A DNA stretch of 64,000 nt. Source: Prolixibacteraceae bacterium (GTDB lineage Bacteria > Bacteroidota > Bacteroidia > Bacteroidales > Prolixibacteraceae). The stretch is taken from assembly GCA_019163175.1 (NCBI GenBank), contig JAFLKN010000030.1, forward strand, positions 1 through 64,000. The letters run 5' to 3'. Below are positions 15,366 through 51,760 of this stretch, piece by piece (position 1 is the stretch's first letter; the number at the start of each line of letters is the position of its first letter). A program made the position numbers and the translations under genes. A model generated the notes under the pieces. That model worked only from the letters and a program-made list of their open reading frames with translations, had not been told where the DNA came from and ran no database searches.

Positions 15366-18300
15366 TTATAAATCTTTAATGCGCAAATTCCTGAATTTCA
15401 GATTAGAGCCATGCCCGAGGAATCCGAGATATCCTTTGTTGCGCTGCAATCCCGGGTGATCTTTATGATCGAGTGTCCCATTTTTGCTGGCCTTTTTCAT
15501 GTTTCCTTCCAGAATGACAGTTCCGTTCAAAGTCACTTTCACGTCATCTCCCTTTATAACAACTTCTTCGTAGTTCCATTCGCCCACAGGTTTCAGGAAC
15601 CCACGTTTGGCCGGGATAATTCCATATACCGAACCATGATATTGATATGGTTCCAGATCCTTGTAAATATCAGCTTCATTATCCAAAATCTGAAGTTCCT
15701 TGCCCACATAGGCGGCATCGCCCTGAAGTGGTGCATGAATACCGAGACCGTTGTTGGCTCCGGGAGTCAATTGGAATTCGAAACGCATAATGAAGTTGGA
15801 GTATTCTCTTTCAGTGAAAATGTTACCATGAGCGCCTTCTTTTGGGCTAACTACGATCTCTCCATCGATGGCCGTGTAATCAACTTTATTACCTTGCCAG
15901 TTATCCAGATTTTTACCGTTGAAAAGTAGTTTAAATCCTTCGGCTTCTTCCTCAGCACTCAGTTTCACATCTTCCAGATTTAGTTCTTTCACAAAAATGT
16001 TGCGGAAAGCCAAATCAGTTCCGTGAGCCTGAAGTTCGATAGCATCTTTTACAAAAATCGGCATTGTGCGATCCCAGTAGTTTTCCATCACCACATTGTC
16101 AACTACAAGCACACCATTCAGGTAAACAGTTACGCGGTCGCCTTCCATTTTAATGCGGAAGGTATTCCAGTCGCCAATAGCATTGTCAGCCAAAACAAGC
16201 GGTTTGCTTTGATTTTTCTGGTTGTTGTACAAACCTCCAGACCCAACCTGGGCGCCAACATCAACACGGGCTGTATCCCAAATCTGAACCTGGGGAGTTC
16301 CGCGCAGATAAATACCACTGTCGCCGTTTTTACTGATTTTCCAGTCAACCAGCATTTCGAAATCGCCGTACATTTTTTTAGAACAAAGGTTGTCGCCTTT
16401 GCCGTTGAAAACAATACAGCCATCTTTTACCGACCAGTTATTTGCCACTTTGGCGTCGGCTTCAACCTGCGCTTTGGCAAGTTCTGCCGGAGTCATTTTT
16501 GCACGGGCAACCGGGTTTTTAACCAGACCCTGCCAGCCACTCAAATCTTTCCCATTGAAAATGCTGACCAGGCCTTTACTCTTTGGAATTTTCTCAAGAT
16601 ATTCGCGGATATCGATAATATCATACTGACTATCCTGGCCACTAATTTTACTCATCACCTTAGTCAAAACTTCGGTAACATATTCGCCAGTCATCCCATT
16701 CTTTTTTCCTGAAGAAGGCAAAGCTAATGCTTTGGCGGCAGCAGCGGCAGTAGCACTCAGGTCTGCATTGTCAAGATAAGCTGAAACAAACACCAGCGAC
16801 AGGAAAGTTTTTACATTGCGGGCAGCCTGAATGATCTGAATTTTTTCGGGTGCTGAAGCACATTCCGGCATAAGCTTTTCTATCATCAGTAATTTCTGGT
16901 CATCCGGAAGTTCAGATTCGAGCGTAATCCGGATGTATGATTTCAGCGCCTCCGAGCGGAATTGTTTCAGCTCTGCATTGGCAAAAACGCTGAACAAATG
17001 AGGTGCAGCTTTGGCATTCTTCCAATTGGCGAGCGATACAAATGCAGCTTCACGTTCAGCCGAATTGCTGCTTTTCAACAAACCAACCACGGTTTTCAGC
17101 GCTTTCGGATCGTTTAATGAAGACAATACCGGTATCAGCTTTTCGGTCATACCTCCGCTTTGAATTTCTTTCAATACCAAACCTGCATCTGGTTTTTCTG
17201 TTCCTGAATAAATATTAATCAAGGCGTTTTGCAGATTAGCGGCGGCCTTTTTATCGGATACCTGTTTGAGCATTCCGATCAAATCAACAGCATTTTCTGA
17301 TTTGGCAACAGTTTCGAGAGCGATAAACGCAGCTGCACTAACTTCAGGATTCGGTGAAGAACTCTGCTTTTTGATGAGTGGATAAGCTTCTGTAGCACGA
17401 CGGGCTCCGAGTACATTCATCAACACAATCTTACCGGCATCATTCATACCCTCCAGTTGAGCGGTGAGCAAACCGCTTTCTTTTACTGAAGTAGAAATCC
17501 GGAGAGCCTGTTCTATTTCGGCAACTTCAGCAGGGCTTTTTGCCTTTTTCAACTGATCAATCAGCGCAGGAACTGCATTGGCCTTTTGATTTAAAGCCAA
17601 TGAACGAATAGCTTCCAGACGTACAACTTCTTCTTTTGCTTTTAAAGCCGGAAGAATAGCCTTTTGCAGAACTACGGGTTCGCTGCGTTTTGCCAGAAAA
17701 TGCAAAATTTCAGCTTTCGTTTCGGCAGGAGCTTTTTTGGTGGCAGCAATCCAGCTTTCCACATTCCCACTGTTAAGTTGAGCCGAAGCGTTGTTCAATA
17801 CGGCATTCCGGTAGACCTTATTGCTGTTTTTAATTTCTTTCAGGAAAAGCTCATTGTTTCCAAATCCGGTAACTGCCAACGCTTCTGAGCGGTAGATCAT
17901 CTGATTTTCGTTGGTGCAATTTTTTAATACTACAGCACACAACTGATTACTTAAGCTGGTTTCGCCTTGTGCAGCCAATCGCTTAGCGAGTTGCATATAC
18001 GAAGCCATTGTTCCGGCCACATCAGGTTGGTATCCGACAGCCAACGCAGCAGCCTCGAAAGTAGGTACCGAAGCTTTTCCGCCGATGTTTGCCAATGCGG
18101 TATAGGTGTGTTGGAGCAATTCACCTTTAGCGGTTTTGGTCAGTTTAATTAACGAACTTTCAGCAGGCTGATATTTCAGCTGACCGAGTGTTTTAACCAT
18201 AGCCAATTGTTGCACTCCGGTTTTATTCGAGAGATTTTTCAGAACTAATGCGCCTGATTCTGGTTTTCCGATGCTGGTTAAAGCAGCTAGAGCTGGTGCA

Positions 18301-18749
18301 TACAATTCAGCCGAATTCAGGTATTTTTCCAATTTCGTAACCGACTCAGCTCCTCCACAATATTGCAGACGACGGATAAAAAATGCTTTTACATCCTTGT
18401 CAGGAGCTTTATCAATAGCCGCAAGCAAAGCACCTTCAACCACTTTTCTGTCTTTTTCGTGATTTGGGCCGCCAGCAAATTGAGCCAGACTTTCCAATGC
18501 CATTCGGGCCTGGGTATCATCACCGGTTCCGGGAGCCACAACTTTGTCGCAGAACTGAGCAATTCCGGGTGCTCCGGTTTCGAGTATCTCAACCATCAGT
18601 TTGGCAGTATGCTCAATACTTTGTGCCGGAAACTGAGCCAGCACATCGGCCACTTTGGTTTCCAACCGACGGTTGTCCTGCGCAAAAGCAGGAGTCATCA
18701 GGAAAAGGGCCAGTAAAACGGTCAGTATTTTTGATGTAACTTTTATCAT
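15366..18749 (-). CDS. HEAT-repeat protein with two DUF1080 (3-keto-glycoside hydrolase) domains
   Basis: About 1127 residues from start MIKVTSKILTVLLALF, which begins a signal peptide ending TPAFAQ. Residues up to about 690 are Ala/Leu-rich helical repeats of HEAT type. Two DUF1080 (PF06439) domains follow: the first opens GLVSIFNGKDLSGWQG, with DFEMLVDWKISKNGDSGIYL; the second opens FKLLFNGKNLDNWQG and ends RNLRIKDL. DUF1080 proteins have a concanavalin-like jelly roll, and characterised members cleave 3-keto-glycosides. The protein should act in the periplasm. The Gfo/Idh oxidoreductase gene lies immediately upstream on the same strand, which fits an oxidative glycoside pathway. Confidence 0.88.
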   Translation of the reverse strand: MIKVTSKILTVLLALFLMTPAFAQDNRRLETKVADVLAQFPAQSIEHTAKLMVEILETGAPGIAQFCDKVVAPGTGDDTQARMALESLAQFAGGPNHEKDRKVVEGALLAAIDKAPDKDVKAFFIRRLQYCGGAESVTKLEKYLNSAELYAPALAALTSIGKPESGALVLKNLSNKTGVQQLAMVKTLGQLKYQPAESSLIKLTKTAKGELLQHTYTALANIGGKASVPTFEAAALAVGYQPDVAGTMASYMQLAKRLAAQGETSLSNQLCAVVLKNCTNENQMIYRSEALAVTGFGNNELFLKEIKNSNKVYRNAVLNNASAQLNSGNVESWIAATKKAPAETKAEILHFLAKRSEPVVLQKAILPALKAKEEVVRLEAIRSLALNQKANAVPALIDQLKKAKSPAEVAEIEQALRISTSVKESGLLTAQLEGMNDAGKIVLMNVLGARRATEAYPLIKKQSSSPNPEVSAAAFIALETVAKSENAVDLIGMLKQVSDKKAAANLQNALINIYSGTEKPDAGLVLKEIQSGGMTEKLIPVLSSLNDPKALKTVVGLLKSSNSAEREAAFVSLANWKNAKAAPHLFSVFANAELKQFRSEALKSYIRITLESELPDDQKLLMIEKLMPECASAPEKIQIIQAARNVKTFLSLVFVSAYLDNADLSATAAAAAKALALPSSGKKNGMTGEYVTEVLTKVMSKISGQDSQYDIIDIREYLEKIPKSKGLVSIFNGKDLSGWQGLVKNPVARAKMTPAELAKAQVEADAKVANNWSVKDGCIVFNGKGDNLCSKKMYGDFEMLVDWKISKNGDSGIYLRGTPQVQIWDTARVDVGAQVGSGGLYNNQKNQSKPLVLADNAIGDWNTFRIKMEGDRVTVYLNGVLVVDNVVMENYWDRTMPIFVKDAIELQAHGTDLAFRNIFVKELNLEDVKLSAEEEAEGFKLLFNGKNLDNWQGNKVDYTAIDGEIVVSPKEGAHGNIFTEREYSNFIMRFEFQLTPGANNGLGIHAPLQGDAAYVGKELQILDNEADIYKDLEPYQYHGSVYGIIPAKRGFLKPVGEWNYEEVVIKGDDVKVTLNGTVILEGNMKKASKNGTLDHKDHPGLQRNKGYLGFLGHGSNLKFRNLRIKDL

Positions 18750-18826
18750 TTGGTATATTTTTATATTCTCATTTTCAATCATTTTTGCTATTTCGTCCGA
18801 AAGTGAATTTTATCTCTAAAATTTGT

Positions 18827-18888
18827 CCCGGGGTTTCGTTCGTTCCTCACTACGCCCCGGGTTATTTAGATTCAGCTCCTTCAGAGCT
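18827..18888. repeat. Palindromic intergenic repeat (REP-like), two hairpins
   Basis: A 7-bp stem cccgggg (18827-18833) / ccccggg (18855-18861) encloses tttcgttcgttcctcactacg. A second hairpin, agctc-cttca-gagct (18874-18888), follows. Neither has a T-tract, so this is not a standard terminator. Its form resembles dispersed palindromes in other Bacteroidota genomes, from memory. It lies between the Gfo/Idh gene and the DUF1080 gene. Confidence 0.5.
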
Positions 18889-18921
18889 AACTTGGAACTT
18901 GAAAACCGAAACTTGGAGCTC

Positions 18922-20190
18922 TTAAATCCTCCATTCTCCTCTCATCGGCTGATCGATCAGCTTATTGGCTTCGTCGTCATTGATGAAAGTTTGAGAAACA
19001 GGATCGAATTCGAGTGTGCGGCCAAGTCGCAAAGCAATAACGCCCATGTTGACAATGGTTGCCGAGCGATGTCCGTTCATTTCGTTCAGGGCAAATTTCT
19101 GGCGGGTTTTAACCGATTCGCTAAATAAACCAATTTGTGGTTCCGGATCTGGCAAGGTATCGATTAACGATTTCAGGTTTGGAATGTCGGATTTAAATCC
19201 GCGGTAGATCTTGCCTTTTGGTCCTTCGATGTAAGCCGCACTCTGATCTTTATTTTCTCCATCGAGAATAATCTGGCAACCGTCGGCATACGTGTAGGTT
19301 ATTTTACGCCATGTTCCGATGGCATCGTAATCTTGCTGTGGAGCGTCAATTTCCACTTTTACCGGACTGGTATTGTCTTTTCCGAGCATATACTGAACCG
19401 GGTCAATGTAATGTTGTCCCATATCGCCCAATCCGCCACCATCGTAATCCCAGTATCCGCGGAATGTTTGGTGAACACGATGTGGATGGTATGGTTTTTC
19501 GGGGGCCGGCCCGAGCCACATGTTGTAATCCAGTTCTGTCGGAACAGGAGTCGGAGTCAGGTTGGATTTGCCTACCCAGTAGAATTTCCAGTCGAACCCA
19601 GTTACCCCGCTGATGGTTACTTTGAGCGGCCAGCCCAAAACACCGCTGTCGATCACTTTTTTCAGCGGTTTTACCGGAGTTCCCAATCCGTAAAAATTGT
19701 CTTTAAACCGGAACCAGGTATTCAGGCGGAACATTTTACCGGTAGCATTGATGGCTTCCACCACACGTTTTCCTTCGCCAATGGTTCGGGTCATGGGTTT
19801 TTCGCACCACACATCTTTTCCGGCCTGAGCAGCCATTACCGACATAATTCCGTGCCAATGAGGAGGTGTGGCAATGTGTACAATGTCAATTTCCGGACGA
19901 AGCAGCAATTCCCTGAAATCGGAATATCCTTTTACTTCGTTTCCTACTTTTTGGAGGGTGCTGCTGAGGTGATTTTTGTCCACATCGCAGATGGCAAGCA
20001 GGCGTGTACCTTCGTAAACGATGTGCCCCTGCCCCATTCCACCAACTCCGATAATGGCTTTGGTTAATTGATCACTTGGAGCGAGGAACCCGTTTCCACC
20101 CAAAACATGCCGCGGAATGATCGTGATCCCTGCAGCAGCTACCAGCGACTTCTTCAGAAAGTCACGGCGATTGTTCATTTTTTCAGTCAT
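18922..20190 (-). CDS. Tat-exported Gfo/Idh/MocA-family oxidoreductase
   Basis: The 422-residue product begins with a twin-arginine signal, NNRRDFLKKSLVAAAG, so it folds with its cofactor before export. The Rossmann segment KAIIGVGGMGQGHI binds NAD(P), and the family EKP motif is present in DVWCEKPMTRT. Members oxidise or reduce sugars and cyclitols, and some make 3-keto-sugars. Together with the DUF1080 hydrolase gene downstream it may form a periplasmic route that oxidises a glycoside and then cleaves it. The start could also be the second Met, at 20178. A 172-bp gap containing a palindromic repeat separates the two genes. Confidence 0.88.
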   Translation of the reverse strand: MTEKMNNRRDFLKKSLVAAAGITIIPRHVLGGNGFLAPSDQLTKAIIGVGGMGQGHIVYEGTRLLAICDVDKNHLSSTLQKVGNEVKGYSDFRELLLRPEIDIVHIATPPHWHGIMSVMAAQAGKDVWCEKPMTRTIGEGKRVVEAINATGKMFRLNTWFRFKDNFYGLGTPVKPLKKVIDSGVLGWPLKVTISGVTGFDWKFYWVGKSNLTPTPVPTELDYNMWLGPAPEKPYHPHRVHQTFRGYWDYDGGGLGDMGQHYIDPVQYMLGKDNTSPVKVEIDAPQQDYDAIGTWRKITYTYADGCQIILDGENKDQSAAYIEGPKGKIYRGFKSDIPNLKSLIDTLPDPEPQIGLFSESVKTRQKFALNEMNGHRSATIVNMGVIALRLGRTLEFDPVSQTFINDDEANKLIDQPMRGEWRI

Positions 20191-20350
20191 ATATACATTG
20201 ATTTAGCAGTGTTCTGGTTTGAACTGATGAATTTACAGCAAATTAAGCATCCGATGTATAAAATGAGGGGTAATAAATGGGGTAATGCCAAAAAAAAGTC
20301 GGTTATGAAAGTTGAACTGGCTTTTTTTGTTTAAAAATGGTGTTCTACAG

Positions 20351-20428: not shown

Positions 20429-21679
20429 ATGAGAAAACCTTCTTTTTTACTACTATTCTGCATCATTTTACTTACCATACCTTACATTGGCTTTTCACAG
20501 GATAAAACAAATCAAGACCGGAACCAGCTTAACTTCTTTTTCGATTGTGAGGATTGTGATCTGACTTTTGTGCGTCAGAAGCTACCATTTGTTTCATTTG
20601 TCAGAGATCCGAAATTAGCTGACATACATGTTTTGGTTTCAGATTCACCCATGGGAAGTGGTGGCCGGAAATATTTCATGCATTTTATTGGAATCGGGAG
20701 TCAGGCAGAGCAAAATTTCGAACTTGAGTTTTTATCCAATCCGTCGGATACCGAAGATGATCTCCGGAAAGGTTTGTTGAAAATATTTAAGGTCGGAATG
20801 CTATCAGTTATGGCACAGGCAGGAAGTCTGGACAATCTGAAGCTTGACATTCAGGAAGTCAATGGTACAAAAGCCGATGAGATGACCAATGATCCTTGGA
20901 AAAAATGGGTCTTTCAAATTGAGTCGGGAGGCGAATTTCAGAAGGAGGAAAGTCAGAATGAATATTCGTTGCGAACTGAAATTAGGGGCGATAAAATTAC
21001 CAATGCATGGAAGACAAGGATGGAAGCCAGTTACGAGCTTAATCGTGAGAATTACTATGACGATGGCGAACGCTTTACGAACAAACAGAATGAGCAGCAA
21101 ATAAAGGCCGATTTCATTAAAAGTTTAAGTTCGCATTTGTCATTGGGTTTGTTTGGCGAATATTCGGCCAATACCTACATGAACATTTCAAATTCCTTTA
21201 GTTTTGACGGTGCTGTTGAATATAACTTCTTCGACTGGGATGAAAGTAACAGACGGGTATTCTCGCTGTCGTGGGCCGCTGGCCTGCGTACTTTCGATTA
21301 CAAGGAAGAAACCATTTACAGCAAAATGAATGAAAAACTACCCTTTGAAGCAGCCAGAATAAAACTCGAACTTGTTCAACCGTGGGGTACCGTGGAAACA
21401 AGCCTTGAAGGTCGACATTTTTTTAACGATTTTTCGAAATACCGCATTACCCTCGATTCTGAATTCGCCATTCGCCTGACCAAACAACTTTCGGTATACA
21501 GCGAGATCGAGTCAGAAATCATACACGACCAGCTCTACCTTCCTAAAGGAGATTCATCAGTTGAAGATTTATTATTGAAGCGCCGAAAGTTGGCAACCAC
21601 CTACGAAATAAGTGGCGAGATGGGTATCCGTTTTACTTTCGGATCGGCTTTTAACAATGTGGTTAACGAACGTTTTTAA
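20429..21679 (+). CDS. Outer-membrane barrel-like protein with periplasmic N-terminal domain
   Basis: The 416-residue product has a Sec signal ending GFSQ. An N-terminal soluble domain of about 150 residues begins with FFFDCEDCDLTFVRQKL and may bind or assemble something. From about residue 160 onward the sequence alternates as in DUF481-like barrels (ASYELNRENYYDDGERF, SLGLFGEYSANTYMNIS), ending in MGIRFTFGSAFNN. The first part contains a CEDC pair that could form a disulphide or bind metal. Function is unknown. It is a single plus-strand gene, divergent from the Gfo/Idh gene. Confidence 0.7.
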   Translation: MRKPSFLLLFCIILLTIPYIGFSQDKTNQDRNQLNFFFDCEDCDLTFVRQKLPFVSFVRDPKLADIHVLVSDSPMGSGGRKYFMHFIGIGSQAEQNFELEFLSNPSDTEDDLRKGLLKIFKVGMLSVMAQAGSLDNLKLDIQEVNGTKADEMTNDPWKKWVFQIESGGEFQKEESQNEYSLRTEIRGDKITNAWKTRMEASYELNRENYYDDGERFTNKQNEQQIKADFIKSLSSHLSLGLFGEYSANTYMNISNSFSFDGAVEYNFFDWDESNRRVFSLSWAAGLRTFDYKEETIYSKMNEKLPFEAARIKLELVQPWGTVETSLEGRHFFNDFSKYRITLDSEFAIRLTKQLSVYSEIESEIIHDQLYLPKGDSSVEDLLLKRRKLATTYEISGEMGIRFTFGSAFNNVVNERF

Positions 21680-45412: not shown

Positions 45413-46411
45413 TCATCTTTTTTTGTATTTAATGGTTACTTGTTCTCCTTCAATTTTATACTGAATTGGTGTAATTACCGAAATCAGTTCCATAACTTCT
45501 CTCAGGCTTTCGGTTTTTACTTTAAACGTATAGTTGTGGCTATAGTATAATTCGTGATCGAGCTGGATTTTTACCCCGTACCATTTTTCAAGATAATGAA
45601 TAACTTCCTCGAAAGGTTGGTTGTCAAATATCAGCATGTTATTCAGCCATGCAGTCAGGGCTTCAAGATTTTCAGCCTGTTGTAAATGGCACTTCCCGTC
45701 ACGACAAACAAATTGTTGCCCTGGATTTAGTTCCGAAATCAGTTTGTCCTGAAGATTGAGAACCTGAACTTTTCCGGAAACTAAGGTTACATCAGCCATA
45801 TTTTTGGCCATGTCTTCGTTCACATTAAAACGGGTACCAAAAACCTTAACCTGAAACTTTGAGCCTTTTACTACAAACGGATGCTTTGGGTCTTTCACCA
45901 CATCAAAAAAACATTCACCCTTCATTAGTACTTCACGCTTTTGAGCTGAATAATCTGAAGCGTATTGTAATTCGGAACCTGAGTTAAGCCAAACATAGGT
46001 ACTGTCGGGCAAAACAATTTGCGTTTTATTACCTTCAGGAGCAATAATCTTGGTGTAACTTACCGAATTGGATTGTTTCAAAAAACCATCACCTAATCCC
46101 AGCCCAGCCAGAAAAACGAGTACCAGAATTGCTGCAGCAGCAGCCCAGCGAAGATAAATTGCCTTCTGATTTTTATGTTTTTCGCGGTAATCAATTCTAC
46201 TCATTAGTTTTTCCCAGTTCAAATCCATATCCGGCTGGTAAAATTCAGTCTTACGTTGGGTAATTGTCCAGGTATTTACGATTTCTGACAGAATCAACTG
46301 ATGTTCCGGCGAACTATCCAGCCAATCCTGAATTTGTTTGATCTGCTCCTCATCAGCTATGTTTTTTAACTTAGCCGAAATAGCCTCCCACGGTATGTTT
46401 TGTTGTTGCAT
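45413..46411 (-). CDS. FecR-family anti-sigma factor
   Basis: The 332-residue product has a cytoplasmic N-terminal region of about 85 residues that would hold the sigma factor, one membrane span (RWAAAAAILVLVFLAGLG), and a periplasmic FecR domain (IIAPEGNKTQIVLPDSTYVWLNSGS, VKVFGTRFNV). The C-terminal DUF4974 domain (FEEVIHYLEKWYGVKIQLD) is the likely contact for the STN domain of SusC. It regulates the locus by releasing the ECF sigma factor on substrate sensing. Unusually, the sigma gene is not adjacent: GH3 lies between. Confidence 0.94.
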   Translation of the reverse strand: MQQQNIPWEAISAKLKNIADEEQIKQIQDWLDSSPEHQLILSEIVNTWTITQRKTEFYQPDMDLNWEKLMSRIDYREKHKNQKAIYLRWAAAAAILVLVFLAGLGLGDGFLKQSNSVSYTKIIAPEGNKTQIVLPDSTYVWLNSGSELQYASDYSAQKREVLMKGECFFDVVKDPKHPFVVKGSKFQVKVFGTRFNVNEDMAKNMADVTLVSGKVQVLNLQDKLISELNPGQQFVCRDGKCHLQQAENLEALTAWLNNMLIFDNQPFEEVIHYLEKWYGVKIQLDHELYYSHNYTFKVKTESLREVMELISVITPIQYKIEGEQVTIKYKKR

Positions 46412-46445
46412 AATTTGGTCTTACGTGTATATGTCGTAATAAATG

Positions 46446-46478
46446 AAAAAATCCCTCAATCGAAATTAGGGGATTTTT
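46446..46478 (-). terminator. Terminator after GH3 / hairpin in fecR leader
   Basis: On the minus strand the arms AAAAATCCC and GGGATTTTT make a 9-bp stem (14-nt loop) followed by another T. It lies 40 bp after the GH3 stop and only 35 bp before the FecR start, so it can end GH3 transcription and could also attenuate fecR expression. Confidence 0.65.
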
Positions 46479-46518
46479 AAACTTTTTTATTATTCTGGAA
46501 ATAAAAACTGAAAATCAA

Positions 46519-48621
46519 CTATTTATATCTCAATCCCTCGTTATAATTGAAAAGTGAATAGCCCTTCTCTTCCAGATAACCGGGCACATCTTCCTTTTGA
46601 TTGGTAACTGCTTCATCAGAAATAGGTGTAGAGAATGGCATTTTCCCGCTTGGGTTAAACTTTCCGGTTACCACATCCAAAAGGGCATCGGTGGTAGTTC
46701 CAAATGTTGCCAACACAGCTTCAATATTGCCTTTGGTTTTGTCATTGTAAATCTCATTAATGACCCACGGATTGGTATAATTAACTACTAAAACTGTTGG
46801 TTTTTTAGCCGTTAAGTTGTTCACATAGTCCACATCCACCGAGCATTTTGACAATGAAATGGAGACAGGTGCACCGGTAGAACCAAACAATGAATTTCCG
46901 GTAGGAACAAGCCATAAAAGCACCACATCTGCTTCTTCAGGTGTATTCACAAATGTTACAGGATACTTGTTGTCATTTGCGCTATAAATAATTCCCGGAT
47001 CAGACAGTTTATCTTTTGAACCTTTCGAATACGTCTCAAAATAGATTTTGGTTTTCGGTTGAACAGGCAATGTCTTGTTTTCATTTTGCAACAAAACAAT
47101 TGATTTGCGCAGCGCTAAATCGGCCCTTTCTTTAAACTTCGCATTGTTGACTATTTTTTCCGCTGCATTTTCATCAACATATGGATTTTCAAACAATCCC
47201 AATTCAAATTTTTCTTTCAACAGACGAACCACAGAGTTGTCGATGTAACTCATATCAACCATGCCTTTATTGATAACTTCGAGCAGCATAGCAGGATCGG
47301 ATTCTCCTGAAAAGAGGTTTACTCCTGCTTCTATTGCTTTTTTGTAGCGTTCCTGCTTGGTCAGTTTTTCAACTCCCCAAGGCATCCCGGTAAGTGGTCC
47401 GGTATCGGAGTTAATGATTCCTTTGAAACCCATTTCATTCCGGAGCAAATCGGTGATAGCGCCTTTATTGAAAGCAAAACCAACCTCTTCGTATTTGGTG
47501 CCCGAAGGAAGTGAATAATAAGGCATCATTGACGAAGTGCCGGCTTTGATGGCCGCTTTGAAAGGAATCAGATTATTTTCAAACATACCACCCGGGTAGA
47601 CTTCTTTTTTGCCCCACTCAAAGTGCGAATCCTGCCCATCTTCACCCGAGCCACCGCCCGGAAAGTGTTTGGTTGTTAATGCAACCGAACTGGCGCTTAA
47701 TTTTTCTCCCTGAAAACCATAAATCACTTCGATGATCATTTTAGCAACCCATTCTGCATCTTCGCCAAATGTTCCGTTCACCCTTGACCATCTTGGTTCT
47801 GTAGCCAGATCGGCCATATACATATATCCTTTTCGCAATCCTACTGCCAGCCACTCCTGACGGGCCATATCAGCAAATTCCCTTGTTAATTTCAGGTCGC
47901 GCATAGCCGATAGGCCCAGTTCTCCGGGCCAGGCTGAAAAAACAGATGTTCCGGCACTGGTGCCGAGCGATGCATTCATGGTAACATTATTCCGAGGATT
48001 TGACGCAATAATTGCCGGAATTCCCAAAGGCTGGCTTTCGCAAAGCGCCTGTAACTTATTCGTCCATTCAGCAGTATTTCTTACACTTTCGTTCATCCGG
48101 TAGATAAAATGACGATTGTTATACTCCTTAACAAATTTGGTTACACCTCCGCCTCCACTCATATTTGCAAGTACTCCGGCAACACCTGTTGCACCGGTTG
48201 TTGTTTGAGTTCTACCTTCTGCTCGATTTGTTGGTTCGCCCCCAAAACCACCACGGCCCTGCCCTCCTGTTTCATTAAAATCGCTGGCCACTAGACCTTC
48301 AGCTGCAGCTTTCCTAGCTCCAATCATGGATACCGTGTTGATGAGCATGAAACCAGCTTTTTCTTCTACTGACATTTTTGAAAGCAGATCAGCACTTCTT
48401 TCTTCTGGCGATAACCGCCAATCTTCGTATTTGTCGAGTTGGTGATTTTTATTGAGGTCTTTAAATTCCAGATTTCCTATTTTCAGGATATCGACACTCC
48501 GATGACCTAAAACGGGTTGTGCTACTTTTTGGCCAAATGAATCAGGTGAGAATACTAGAATCAATAAAACAAGATGCCCCATCAATCTAAAAACGATTGA
48601 AAATGGATTAACAGTTTTCAT
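46519..48621 (-). CDS. Secreted glycoside hydrolase family 3 enzyme
   Basis: The 700-residue protein has a Sec signal ending DSFGQ. The family 3 barrel shows GWPGE-like SAWPGELGLSA, KHFPGGGSGEDGQDSH, and the candidate nucleophile Asp in GIINSDTGPL, where most members read SDW. The C-terminal alpha/beta sandwich includes LRKSIVLLQNENKTLPV. A Gly-rich insertion (GGQGRGGFGGEP) near residues 118-130 is unusual. The enzyme should release terminal sugars from oligosaccharides in the periplasm or at the surface. It lies between the ECF sigma and FecR genes and carries its own promoter and terminator. Confidence 0.9.
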   Translation of the reverse strand: MKTVNPFSIVFRLMGHLVLLILVFSPDSFGQKVAQPVLGHRSVDILKIGNLEFKDLNKNHQLDKYEDWRLSPEERSADLLSKMSVEEKAGFMLINTVSMIGARKAAAEGLVASDFNETGGQGRGGFGGEPTNRAEGRTQTTTGATGVAGVLANMSGGGGVTKFVKEYNNRHFIYRMNESVRNTAEWTNKLQALCESQPLGIPAIIASNPRNNVTMNASLGTSAGTSVFSAWPGELGLSAMRDLKLTREFADMARQEWLAVGLRKGYMYMADLATEPRWSRVNGTFGEDAEWVAKMIIEVIYGFQGEKLSASSVALTTKHFPGGGSGEDGQDSHFEWGKKEVYPGGMFENNLIPFKAAIKAGTSSMMPYYSLPSGTKYEEVGFAFNKGAITDLLRNEMGFKGIINSDTGPLTGMPWGVEKLTKQERYKKAIEAGVNLFSGESDPAMLLEVINKGMVDMSYIDNSVVRLLKEKFELGLFENPYVDENAAEKIVNNAKFKERADLALRKSIVLLQNENKTLPVQPKTKIYFETYSKGSKDKLSDPGIIYSANDNKYPVTFVNTPEEADVVLLWLVPTGNSLFGSTGAPVSISLSKCSVDVDYVNNLTAKKPTVLVVNYTNPWVINEIYNDKTKGNIEAVLATFGTTTDALLDVVTGKFNPSGKMPFSTPISDEAVTNQKEDVPGYLEEKGYSLFNYNEGLRYK

Positions 48622-48685
48622 ATGCTTAGCGAATTAGTTAGTGAATAAAGCCGCCCCAATTTACCTTATTTTCTGCACTTTCACT

Positions 48686-48716
48686 CAAAAATATTTCCAG
48701 ATTTAGATCGACTCAA
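48686..48716 (-). promoter_or_regulatory. Promoter of the GH3 gene
   Basis: On the minus strand TTG (48714-48716, within TTTTGAG) is followed after 20 nt by TATTTTTG (48686-48693), a perfect -7 box. It lies just downstream of the sigma gene and about 65 bp before the GH3 ATG. Confidence 0.55.
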
Positions 48717-48733
48717 AACTGAAGTTCTGATCG

Positions 48734-49330
48734 CTATTTCATCAATAGCTGAGCTACACAGATCATAAATATCTGTTTGTAATACGGTTTTAGCAATTCG
48801 CGAAGTTTGCGCAGAGCAATGCCTACATGGTTTTCTACAGTTTTTGGGGTAATTCCGAGTTGCTCGGCAATCTCTTTGTGCGATAGGTTTTCTTCCCAGG
48901 CCAATTGGTAAATCTGTCGGCTTTTCTCCGGGAGTTTGCTTATAGCGTCATCAATAATTTCGCGCAATTCATTGTTCTCCATAAACTGATGCGCACCCGA
49001 AACATCTGGCATCAAATAGTCGCCCACCTGAAGCGAAGTGAACACCGTTTTGTGCTCTTTCCGGTAATGACTAATCGCTTTGTTTTTTGCCGAAGCAAAC
49101 AGGAAGGATTTAAAGTTCGATTTGATCTGAAGAGTTTCACGCTTTTCCCAAATGTAGGTAAACAGTTCAAGGGCAATTTCTTCGGAAAGTTCTTTGGAAT
49201 GGAGGTAAATCAGCAGAAAATTGCACAAATCGGCAAAATGAGTATCGAACAAGAACCGATAGGCAGTAATGTTTCCATCCGCCATTTGCAGCAATGCTTC
49301 CGTATCGTTCATGAAATTTTGCTTCGACAT
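48734..49330 (-). CDS. ECF-type RNA polymerase sigma factor
   Basis: The 198-residue product has sigma region 2 (YRFLFDTHFADLCNFLLIYL, FKSFLFASAKNKAISHYR) and region 4 with the helix-turn-helix LPEKSRQIYQLAWEENLSHKEIAEQLGITPKTVENHV. It belongs to the ECF family often paired with FecR in Bacteroidota. It would drive the SusC/D genes when released by FecR. A second ATG six codons in is possible as start. It is the first gene of the sigma/GH3/FecR/SusC/SusD series. Confidence 0.93.
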   Translation of the reverse strand: MSKQNFMNDTEALLQMADGNITAYRFLFDTHFADLCNFLLIYLHSKELSEEIALELFTYIWEKRETLQIKSNFKSFLFASAKNKAISHYRKEHKTVFTSLQVGDYLMPDVSGAHQFMENNELREIIDDAISKLPEKSRQIYQLAWEENLSHKEIAEQLGITPKTVENHVGIALRKLRELLKPYYKQIFMICVAQLLMK

Positions 49331-49365
49331 ACCTTATTCGTTGATCCTGAACTGTTGGATGTTGG

Positions 49366-49373
49366 CAAATATA
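49366..49373 (-). promoter_or_regulatory. Probable -7 box of the ECF sigma gene
   Basis: TATATTTG on the minus strand is a perfect TAnnTTTG match 36 bp before the ATG at 49330. No TTG is found at the standard distance. Confidence 0.4.
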
Positions 49374-49449
49374 GCAATTCGAGACTTATAACGGTATTTC
49401 TTCAATCTTACCTACACGCGTTACCTGTTAACAATTCCGCTTGCCAAAG

Positions 49450-51714
49450 TTAATCGTTATCTATCAACGATTTAAAGTCACCCGAATACTTTTCCTGATA
49501 CAACTCGAGGTACAATTTGGTAAAATTATCGAAAACGGAATGGGCCAGACTTAACTTACCTTGCCGGGTTAGAATACTTATTTTTTTACGAAGGGCTGGC
49601 TCATTCAGCGAATCATTTAAGCTGAGTACCTCAGCAACTTCGAGGAGCAATGAACCATGTTTTTCTTCATTGAGCAACCTAAAAACATTTAGACCAAATT
49701 CAAGAATGCGGTTGCTCATGGCATTGATGTACGGATCGACCCACGATTCGCTCATGTTGGGAAAAAGCGTACCTTTTTTGAGAATCGGCAGTAGGTCAGC
49801 GAGTTCTTCAACCAGCTTTTCCTCATCCGTGTTCGACTCCAATTCAATTAGTTTAGCTTCGGCAAAAGCATAATCAACAAAATAGTTTTCGGCAAATTCA
49901 AGCAGCCAAAGTTTATCCTGAAAGACCAGCTTCATTCCGGCACACGGTGCCAGCAATGCTTTCAGGTTCTGAATGTTGGTACCCCGTATATTCTTGGCAT
50001 TTTGCGGACTTACTCCCGGCCATAAACAGTCAGACAATTTGTTGGAGCTTATACCTTTTCGTCCACCAACACTGTGCAATAAAATAAGTACAAACAATTG
50101 CTTGATTTTAGGCGAAAACTTCAGGCTGATGTCTTTTCCTTCCGGTGTAAAAACCTTTAGCCCTCCAAAACAAGAGATTTGTTCCGCCACCACTTTGGGT
50201 TTGCCTGGTTCCGGAGCAGTTAATTTTTTAGGATGATTTTCTGTCTCTTTAGGCAATAACCTGCGCCGAAGCAAAAAGCCCAGAGCCAGCAGAAAAAGGA
50301 AAATACCCAGAAGCCAGCCTCTGCTCAGGCTAAAATGTGAATCATTTCTTTTGGTGAATTCGTTCCTGATTTCCTCATCGTTCAGTTCGCGTTCCCATAT
50401 TTTAATTTCAGACATGTAGCCTTTGAAAAATTCTTCCCAAAGGTTACTACCAATTAGCATGGTATAGTCGGATGCGTTGTATGGAGTTAGCAATTGAACC
50501 TGCTCGGTTAGTTCGCCGTTCAGGTAAAAACGAATGTGGTTATCGGCTTCCGAATGCACCAAACTGACGAACGACCAGCGATTAACCGGAATCATTGTTC
50601 GCGCCGAACGATAATCTTTAACTCCCTGAACCGTAAATGTCAATTCTCCCTGATGAATTTTCAATACAAAATCTTTCCCTTTAGCCAGTATACAATTGTT
50701 GTTTCCCAGCTCTGTCGGCTTTATCCAGGCCGTAATGCTGAAATTGGATTTCAGCGCTGTACAACTTTTCAAACCGCCATCCAAATAAGCTTTTCCGGCA
50801 AAAAAAGCACAATTTCCACGCTCTGCATCTTTTGCGAAATCGAGCCCGTACAGAATTATTTCGTTGTCGTTTTTCCGGTAAAGGTTCCTGACTTTTCCTG
50901 AAAAAGTGAACCGGTCAGTCAGCCCAAAATCAGGATCAAGTGGCAGCGCATTGAATACTTTCAGGTTTTGAAGGTTCTCGGGCGAAGGAAGGATAATGTC
51001 GGGTGAAAATCGATAGCCTGACTTGTAGGGAGCCAGCGCAAAATGATTGTCGGAACCAATCGGGAAACTGAAGAACCCGCTTGTTTTACGCCCGGGGTAT
51101 TCTTTCCACGACACATCAGTCAGCAATTGATCTCCATTGCGAACCACCCCGAAAATCCTTGAATGGCTATTCAATGCCTTTACTATGGCTATGGTTTGCT
51201 GAATCTTGTCGTTAGGAGGAGATACAAAATTTGGCATCCTGCCATTTTGCTCCCATATCTCAATAAATCTACCAATTTGCCACATAGAATCGGGTAGCGT
51301 TTCAATCCAAAGGAAAGACGATTGTTGAAGTTGCCTTTCAGGTCCGAATCGTTGCAATTCAGCTAAATCCAAAACCAGTAATTTCTTATTTGTCCGATTC
51401 GGAAAATTGTGATTATCTGCTGAAATAATTACTAAAGGTAGCACATTACGATGCATTCGATCAGTCAATTTGTTGGCCCATTCACTTGATTTTCCGGTTG
51501 ACTCCAAAGCTAAAGGAACACGACTTTTCAGCAAAGAATCAATTAATTCAGAAGGCATTTCATCTGGCTGAATAAGCAGGTGCGTTCTAAATAAAATGGA
51601 CTGCCTGATACTGTCTCCAGTATCTAAAACCTCCTGACTTTCAGCCTGAAATTCAATCAGAAAAAAGAAAATCAGAAAAACCCAACCAAGTTTATATGTT
51701 TTCAGATCAACCAA
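49450..51714 (-). CDS. Membrane-spanning LamG / SARP-like transcription regulator
   Basis: The 754-residue protein has an N-terminal signal or anchor (VFLIFFFLIEFQAES), an unassigned region to about residue 280, and a LamG/concanavalin-like jelly roll at about 285-445 (SITAWIKPTELGNNNCILAKG, NRWSFVSLVHSEADNHIRFYLNG). One membrane span (about 463-482) follows, then a basic stop (RRRLLPK). The cytoplasmic part has a winged-helix region (ISCFGGLKVFTPEGKDISL, SSNKLSDCLWPGVSPQNAKNI) and BTAD-like helical repeats, as in SARP-type regulators. It would read an external carbohydrate-like signal and bind DNA directly. It lies 119 bp upstream of the ECF sigma gene. Confidence 0.8.
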   Translation of the reverse strand: MVDLKTYKLGWVFLIFFFLIEFQAESQEVLDTGDSIRQSILFRTHLLIQPDEMPSELIDSLLKSRVPLALESTGKSSEWANKLTDRMHRNVLPLVIISADNHNFPNRTNKKLLVLDLAELQRFGPERQLQQSSFLWIETLPDSMWQIGRFIEIWEQNGRMPNFVSPPNDKIQQTIAIVKALNSHSRIFGVVRNGDQLLTDVSWKEYPGRKTSGFFSFPIGSDNHFALAPYKSGYRFSPDIILPSPENLQNLKVFNALPLDPDFGLTDRFTFSGKVRNLYRKNDNEIILYGLDFAKDAERGNCAFFAGKAYLDGGLKSCTALKSNFSITAWIKPTELGNNNCILAKGKDFVLKIHQGELTFTVQGVKDYRSARTMIPVNRWSFVSLVHSEADNHIRFYLNGELTEQVQLLTPYNASDYTMLIGSNLWEEFFKGYMSEIKIWERELNDEEIRNEFTKRNDSHFSLSRGWLLGIFLFLLALGFLLRRRLLPKETENHPKKLTAPEPGKPKVVAEQISCFGGLKVFTPEGKDISLKFSPKIKQLFVLILLHSVGGRKGISSNKLSDCLWPGVSPQNAKNIRGTNIQNLKALLAPCAGMKLVFQDKLWLLEFAENYFVDYAFAEAKLIELESNTDEEKLVEELADLLPILKKGTLFPNMSESWVDPYINAMSNRILEFGLNVFRLLNEEKHGSLLLEVAEVLSLNDSLNEPALRKKISILTRQGKLSLAHSVFDNFTKLYLELYQEKYSGDFKSLIDND

Positions 51715-51760
51715 ATTACCGAAATTTAAAATATATGTTCATTGATCGAATTTTTGAAGC

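Follow-up and report, generated by a model that had tools for sequence, protein, structure and literature searches.

The window, as we call the whole 64,000-nucleotide stretch of Prolixibacteraceae DNA analysed here, carries at 49450-51714 a gene for a regulator in which a LamG ectodomain is joined through one membrane helix to a SARP half. From its sequence, its predicted structure and the arrangement of genes in its relatives, we think it probable that this protein is a membrane-anchored one-component SARP, which binds tandem heptamers and most likely activates, from 30 kb away, an operon encoding a Gfo/Idh/MocA oxidoreductase together with a protein that combines HEAT repeats and 3-keto-disaccharide hydrolase domains. 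A previous sequence-only reading had proposed a transmembrane one-component regulator of this kind, and structure models, fold searches and gene neighbourhoods bear out that description, including a genuine SARP half and a link of the family to glycan genes.

Architecture of the regulator

The features of the regulator gene, all on the minus strand, are as follows.

49450-51714, minus strand: LamG-SARP regulator gene, 754 aa, TTG start; homologues were found
51640-51714, minus strand: signal peptide or N-terminal hydrophobic segment, aa 1-25; modelled helix 4-41 of low confidence, hydrophobicity conserved
50860-51627, minus strand: N-terminal extracytoplasmic domain, aa about 30-285, alpha/beta in the model, then beta strands
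50368-50856, minus strand: LamG or concanavalin-A-like jelly roll, aa about 287-449; Pfam PF13385, E = 1e-21
50257-50322, minus strand: single transmembrane helix in the model, aa 465-486, then RRR; N-out, C-in
49894-50184, minus strand: winged-helix (ODB-like) DNA-binding domain, aa 511-607, from the model, PDB fold matches and hhalign
49951-50007, minus strand: recognition helix, aa 570-588 (PQNAKNIRGTNIQNLKALL), aligned to alpha3 of AfsR
49462-49875, minus strand: all-helical BTA domain, aa 614-751, from the model, PDB fold matches and hhalign

The model of the full-length protein had a mean pLDDT of 83 and placed, in order, an N-terminal hydrophobic helix, an alpha/beta and then a beta-rich part, the jelly roll, a membrane helix and an all-alpha/winged-helix C-terminus. 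The signal or anchor proposed earlier for the N-terminus is seen both as the hydrophobic helix of the model and as a segment conserved among homologues. The single membrane span, previously put at about aa 463-482, appears in the model as one helix at about aa 463-486 with RRR on its C-terminal side, from which, by the positive-inside rule, we infer an N-out/C-in topology. The LamG domain, read at about aa 285-445, was recovered as a match to Laminin_G_3 at aa 322-449 (78.2 bits against a curated cut-off of 27.6). It is the sole Pfam domain above cut-off in the regulator, and the match is common to all of the 27 aligned homologues. Foldseek with the full-length model returned LamG-fold matches only, and the best PDB neighbour of the jelly roll was domain 4 of the arabinanase AbnA. 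Neurotoxin binding domains were also among the matches; they share the jelly-roll fold alone, and no functional meaning was drawn from them.

The N-terminal domain (aa about 30-285) is conserved, and was absent from the earlier description. The N-termini of paralogues match PF25506 (TIM-barrel_MTC6) weakly, in 7 of 12 cases with a best value of 3e-6, and comparison of the A3 and A4 alignments, which share members, gave a probability of 100%. Against the PDB the N-terminal profile gave chance matches only. The domain is possibly a derived remnant of a PLC-like TIM barrel followed by beta strands, which we offer as a suggestion because it draws on the weak PF25506 matches and on a reading of the alignment. 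The N-termini of the L002/L041-type paralogues resemble a PLC-like TIM barrel, possibly an inactive enzyme serving as a sensor.

The TTG start (51712-51714) is conserved in the close orthologues inspected (L004, L010, L029, L053 and L055-L066). In the window gene and these orthologues it lies about 6-7 codons ahead of a conserved Tyr, an in-frame ATG is generally absent upstream of the signal peptide, and the distant paralogues start with ATG. The conserved TTG may hold down regulator expression. At about 51715-51742 of the window, a short reading frame out of frame with the gene (ATG AAC ATA TAT TTT AAA TTT CGG TAA) stops just ahead of the TTG, and in the same area L010, L055 and L056 have ATGAATTAA.

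The C-terminal half

When PDB sequences were searched with the C-terminal profile (hmmsearch), nothing was found, and a fold search was therefore required. Modelled alone from a 28-sequence alignment, aa 511-754 gave a pLDDT of 94.3 and a pTM of 0.89. Six PDB entries matched this model at E < 1e-3, and all were chains of AfsR (8hvr, 8k60) or EmbR (2fez, 2ff4), with E from 6e-7 to 2.5e-5 and TM from 0.55 to 0.65. Aligned by hhalign to AfsR plus EmbR, the family covered 205 columns across both sub-domains, at a probability of only 72% and P = 3e-5. Searches of the C-terminal half with Pfam and NCBIfam gave no direct match, including no BTAD for the window protein, and among homologues BTAD was matched weakly in 3 of 27 (best E 0.008). 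Since the fold is that of a SARP, the missing BTAD match is read as sequence divergence; the term SARP is used here for fold plus operator geometry. By its model the C-terminal half is a SARP fold despite having no Pfam match of its own, and the winged-helix and helical cytoplasmic half of the sequence-only reading is upheld.

The DNA contacts of AfsR have been published (PMC10936776), and an AfsR sequence for comparison was retrieved from the PDB with a generic SARP consensus peptide as the query. The position of AfsR S46 is S534 in the regulator, kept in 26 of 28 family sequences, and that of W74 is W565, kept in all 28. Two positions lie in the recognition helix: T88 corresponds to T579 (25/28) and R94 to K585, which is K or R throughout (28/28). 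The P79 position is mixed and the Q48 position is K/R, while those of K95 and of the base-reading R92 vary (A/E/T and N/R/K, respectively). The earlier claim had been made to depend on a DNA-binding helix in this half, and it is not refuted, since the SARP fold and DNA-contact positions are kept.

A predicted operator ahead of a keto-sugar operon

The regulator gene is followed, in the majority of the other orthologues (to identities of about 30%, Seonamhaeicola L012 among them), by a gene for a Gfo/Idh/MocA oxidoreductase and then by one for a protein of about 1130 aa with HEAT repeats and 3-keto-disaccharide hydrolase domains. In relatives, tandem heptamers of the form TTACCCC-N5-TTACCCC-N5-TTxxxCx lie between the regulator and this operon. 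The corresponding features of the window are listed below.

20255-20285, minus strand: predicted operator, three direct heptamers TTACCCC attta TTACCCC tcatt TTATACA with a period of 12, conserved in relatives
20239-20246, minus strand: -7-like promoter element TTAATTTG, 8 bp past the third repeat
18922-20190, minus strand: Gfo/Idh/MocA oxidoreductase, predicted target gene 1 (PF01408 and PF19051)
15366-18782, minus strand: HEAT-repeat protein with 3-keto-disaccharide hydrolase domains, predicted target gene 2 (PF06439 in two stretches, PF13646)

The Gfo/Idh/MocA protein of the window is 96% identical to the one encoded immediately after the SARP gene in L057. TTACCCC-N5-TTACCCC occurs without mismatch only once in the 5.92-Mb genome (G000), at 20267-20285 of the window on the minus strand, and this pair of heptamers lies 76 bp upstream of the gene at 18922-20190. 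Because this sole perfect repeat precedes the orthologous Gfo/HEAT-hydrolase genes, operon and operator are taken to be present in the window, 30 kb from the regulator. On these grounds of sequence the likely target of the regulator is the operon at 15366-20190, with the predicted operator at 20255-20285. Proteins with the PF06439/DUF1080 domain include the 3-ketotrehalose hydrolase BT2157 (PMC9007349), and, judged from its enzymes, the operon should act on 3-ketoglycosides. Divergent from it, at 20429-21679, where relatives have the regulator, is a gene for a 416-aa protein without a Pfam match, which also occurs in G004 and G006, both without the regulator.

The three-repeat score was compared with dinucleotide shuffles in 14 LamG-type intervals, namely those preceding the keto-sugar operon or other SARP-adjacent targets. 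It beat 200 of 200 shuffles in every one, that of Seonamhaeicola (L012) included. A -7-like element, defined as TAnnTTTG with at most two mismatches and mostly one mismatch off, was found 8 or 9 bp past the third repeat in all 14 intervals and in the window (15 promoters). The published rule for SARP promoters is one of direct repeats at a spacing of 11 or 22 bp, the 3' repeat being 8 bp from the -10 element (PMC10936776). The promoters described here resemble that AfsR/EmbR type in their tandem direct repeats and in the 8 or 9 bp between the 3' copy and the -7-like element; the period is 12 in the LamG type, compared with the canonical 11, and 11-12 in the L002 type. Paralogues of the L002 type, including L073 of the same genome, have TTAACCC repeats with a period of 11-12 ahead of their own targets, and 7 of 7 beat all shuffles. 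By eye, the series in L073 and L079 continues at period 11 to 8 bp ahead of a perfect TAnnTTTG. In L066, L067 and L069 the operator remains beside the regulator though the target gene differs. Three more TTACCCC-type repeats with a period of 12 were seen at G124:C241:155448-155478, away from both the regulator and the Gfo gene, and could mark a second target.

Proposed mechanism

From the anatomy of the protein, the model and the positive-inside rule, the N-terminal domain and LamG would face the periplasm, one helix would cross the inner membrane, and the SARP half would be cytoplasmic. The LamG/N-terminal part probably senses a periplasmic glycoside or oligosaccharide. The SARP half probably binds two or three heptamers, as the co-occurrence described below, the conserved geometry and the conserved DNA-contact residues suggest. 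Binding of SARP halves to the heptamers may be cooperative, and the bound SARP half would most likely contact RNA polymerase and activate the operon at 15366-20190. In G000 the regulator gene would act from beside an ECF polysaccharide locus on an operon 30 kb off; in most relatives it is directly upstream of the operon.

The same regulator and operator could instead serve repression, or the SARP half could first be freed from the membrane by proteolysis, a membrane tether being topologically awkward for a distant operator. We consider this variant unlikely. AfsR is an activator, and the repeats lie upstream of and beside the -7 box, where an activator replaces the -33 contact, and not over the start. 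SusR, a comparable regulator of Bacteroidota, binds periplasmic maltose and activates operons (PMC3878776).

Co-occurrence of regulator and operator

A Gfo orthologue was found in 96 genomes of the family, 29 with a LamG-SARP (match at E < 1e-70) and 67 without. An operator was counted when the pattern occurred with at most one mismatch within 300 bp upstream of Gfo. It was found in 27 of the 29 genomes with the regulator, at 62-142 bp, versus 2 of the 67 without it (Fisher 3e-19, uncorrected for relatedness). In G108 and G115, which have the regulator and no operator at the Gfo gene, the operator adjoins the regulator, ahead of another gene. G125 and G129 have the operator and no detected regulator, the assembly of G129 being 71% complete; absences are uncertain because most of the genomes are draft assemblies.

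Within the genus the operator was present in 14/14 genomes with the regulator versus 0/4 without, and on the Gfo codon tree the four negatives occupy three distinct positions. The genus shows about three joint losses of regulator and repeats, with the operon retained. Upstream of Gfo, remnants of the repeats are seen at the expected distance in G004 and G006 and none in G016 and G021, and -7-like boxes are kept in at least two of these four genomes with decayed repeats. The repeats do not form a 3' element of the regulator gene, since in some ten genomes (among them G000, G001, G007, G009, G012, G014, G015 and G096) 25-51 kb separates the operator from the regulator or the two lie on different contigs. 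Nor are the repeats simply a feature of the operon, since they vanish on loss of the regulator while the operon stays.

These data bear on whether some other transcription factor binds the repeats, or whether they are intrinsic to the Gfo operon, the LamG-SARP being merely a frequent neighbour. G125 and G129, with an operator and no detected regulator, would fit such an account, which we nevertheless hold to be quite improbable given the joint losses with the operon retained, the persistence of regulator and operator together even when unlinked, the operator that accompanies the regulator to different targets in L066, L067 and L069, and a repeat geometry which is that of SARP promoters.

The adjacent ECF sigma locus

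48734-49330, minus strand: ECF sigma factor gene, next after the regulator gene; a neighbour whose role as a target is not supported

The ECF sigma gene reported next to the regulator is real. It had been taken to indicate double control of an adjacent polysaccharide locus through the interval 49331-49449, and this part of the sequence-only reading was not supported: repeats in that interval were at chance level, with 145 of 200 shuffles as good, and an operator there was rejected. In the shuffle test the ECF- or GH3-linked intervals of L054, L055, L056 and L058 were likewise at chance; the ECF interval of L053 was too short and was left out. Control of the adjacent ECF sigma/FecR/SusCD locus, instead of or besides the distant operon, is suggested by the order of genes, as the regulator precedes the ECF gene in the window (by 119 bp), L053, L055, L056 and L058, with GH3, FecR and SusC in varying combinations. 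Such control seems doubtful to us all the same, because no repeat above chance was found in the intervals tested, those of the window, L055, L056 and L058 own a full TAnnTTTG element, and no ECF locus lies beside the regulator in most other orthologues. At 45413-49330 of the window a GH3 gene lies between the genes for the ECF sigma and a FecR-type anti-sigma factor, an order also seen in L055, L056 and L058; L053 is without GH3.

That the C-terminal half is a degenerate SARP which does not bind DNA and works through protein contacts might be argued from the failure of Pfam to recognise a DNA-binding domain in the regulator, but is hardly credible with the helix-turn-helix contact residues S534, W565, T579 and K585 almost invariant and with a SARP-like operator co-occurring.

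Distribution and paralogues

The protein was matched in 92 of 140 genomes of its family, and the profile of the SARP half (A2) in 7 of 297 genomes of the phylum sample, G000 itself included. Two paralogues occur in the same genome. One (L002/L073) has the same architecture at 28% identity. The other (L003/L074) has a kelch propeller with the same membrane helix and SARP half, is 29% identical to the regulator over aa 460-751 and lies directly upstream of SusC/SusD.

In L073 (G000:C1), L076-L080 and L082, a LamG-SARP paralogue is followed by a gene for a NapC/NirT cytochrome-FGE-sulfatase fusion, with TTAACCC repeats between; Gfo/Idh/MocA proteins, a GT2-like protein and a 690-aa membrane protein are also encoded after these paralogues. 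Kelch-SARP paralogues, both that of the same genome and others elsewhere in the phylum (L045, L046, L048, L051), have the membrane helix and SARP half in common with the regulator. They differ in having a kelch propeller as sensor, and the family members inspected are often beside or divergent from SusC/SusD, not the keto-sugar operon; this holds for several among L074 (G000:C5), L087-L092, L045, L046, L048 and L051. When kelch-type SusC intervals were checked for the same geometry, the result was suggestive in L090 and L092 only, where TTAA repeats at period 11 are possible.

Relation to known systems

The cytoplasmic half is like AfsR of Streptomyces and EmbR of Mycobacterium in its winged-helix ODB domain, all-helical BTA domain and conserved DNA contacts. 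AfsR and EmbR carry the SARP half at the N-terminus and have no membrane anchor; the present protein has it at the C-terminus, following a LamG ectodomain and a single transmembrane helix, in a member of the Bacteroidota and with repeats of period 12.

As a one-component regulator of sugar operons, the protein also resembles SusR, an activator of sugar operons that binds its ligand maltose on the periplasmic side (PMC3878776). SusR-like regulators of Bacteroides include BT3705 and BT2160 (SusR4) (PMC3878776), and the locus number of BT2160 is near that of the 3-ketotrehalose hydrolase BT2157 (PMC3878776, PMC9007349). The DNA-binding domain of SusR has been described as unlike known ones, and its motifs consist of two sites separated by 67 or 77 bp (PMC3878776), unlike the predicted heptamers of the regulator, which are 11-12 bp apart. 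The regulator is like the hybrid two-component systems (HTCS) of Bacteroidota in coupling a periplasmic glycan sensor across the membrane to a DNA-binding half in the cytoplasm. The kinase, receiver and AraC-type output of HTCS were not found in the regulator, where Pfam detects LamG only and the cytoplasmic half has the SARP fold.

SARPs are already known, as are one-component sugar regulators which sense in the periplasm (SusR, PMC3878776). For a membrane-anchored, lectin-fused SARP of Bacteroidota with an operator of SARP geometry, nothing was found in the open-access papers that were searched. We incline to the view that the membrane-anchored SARPs of Bacteroidota are a class of one-component glycan sensors in which ectodomains can be exchanged (LamG plus a PLC-like N-terminus, or kelch), heptamers (TTACCCC, TTAACCC) and carbohydrate operons are specific to each branch, and the promoter geometry is that of actinobacterial SARPs.

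A regulator, an operator and a target are now predicted for a 3-ketoglycoside operon. If they are right, a regulator need not act on the gene cluster closest to it: here the operon most likely under its control is 30 kb off. If the proposal is true, SARPs, which have been studied as activators of antibiotic synthesis, would also exist in Bacteroidota as membrane-bound sugar sensors with the same promoter geometry.
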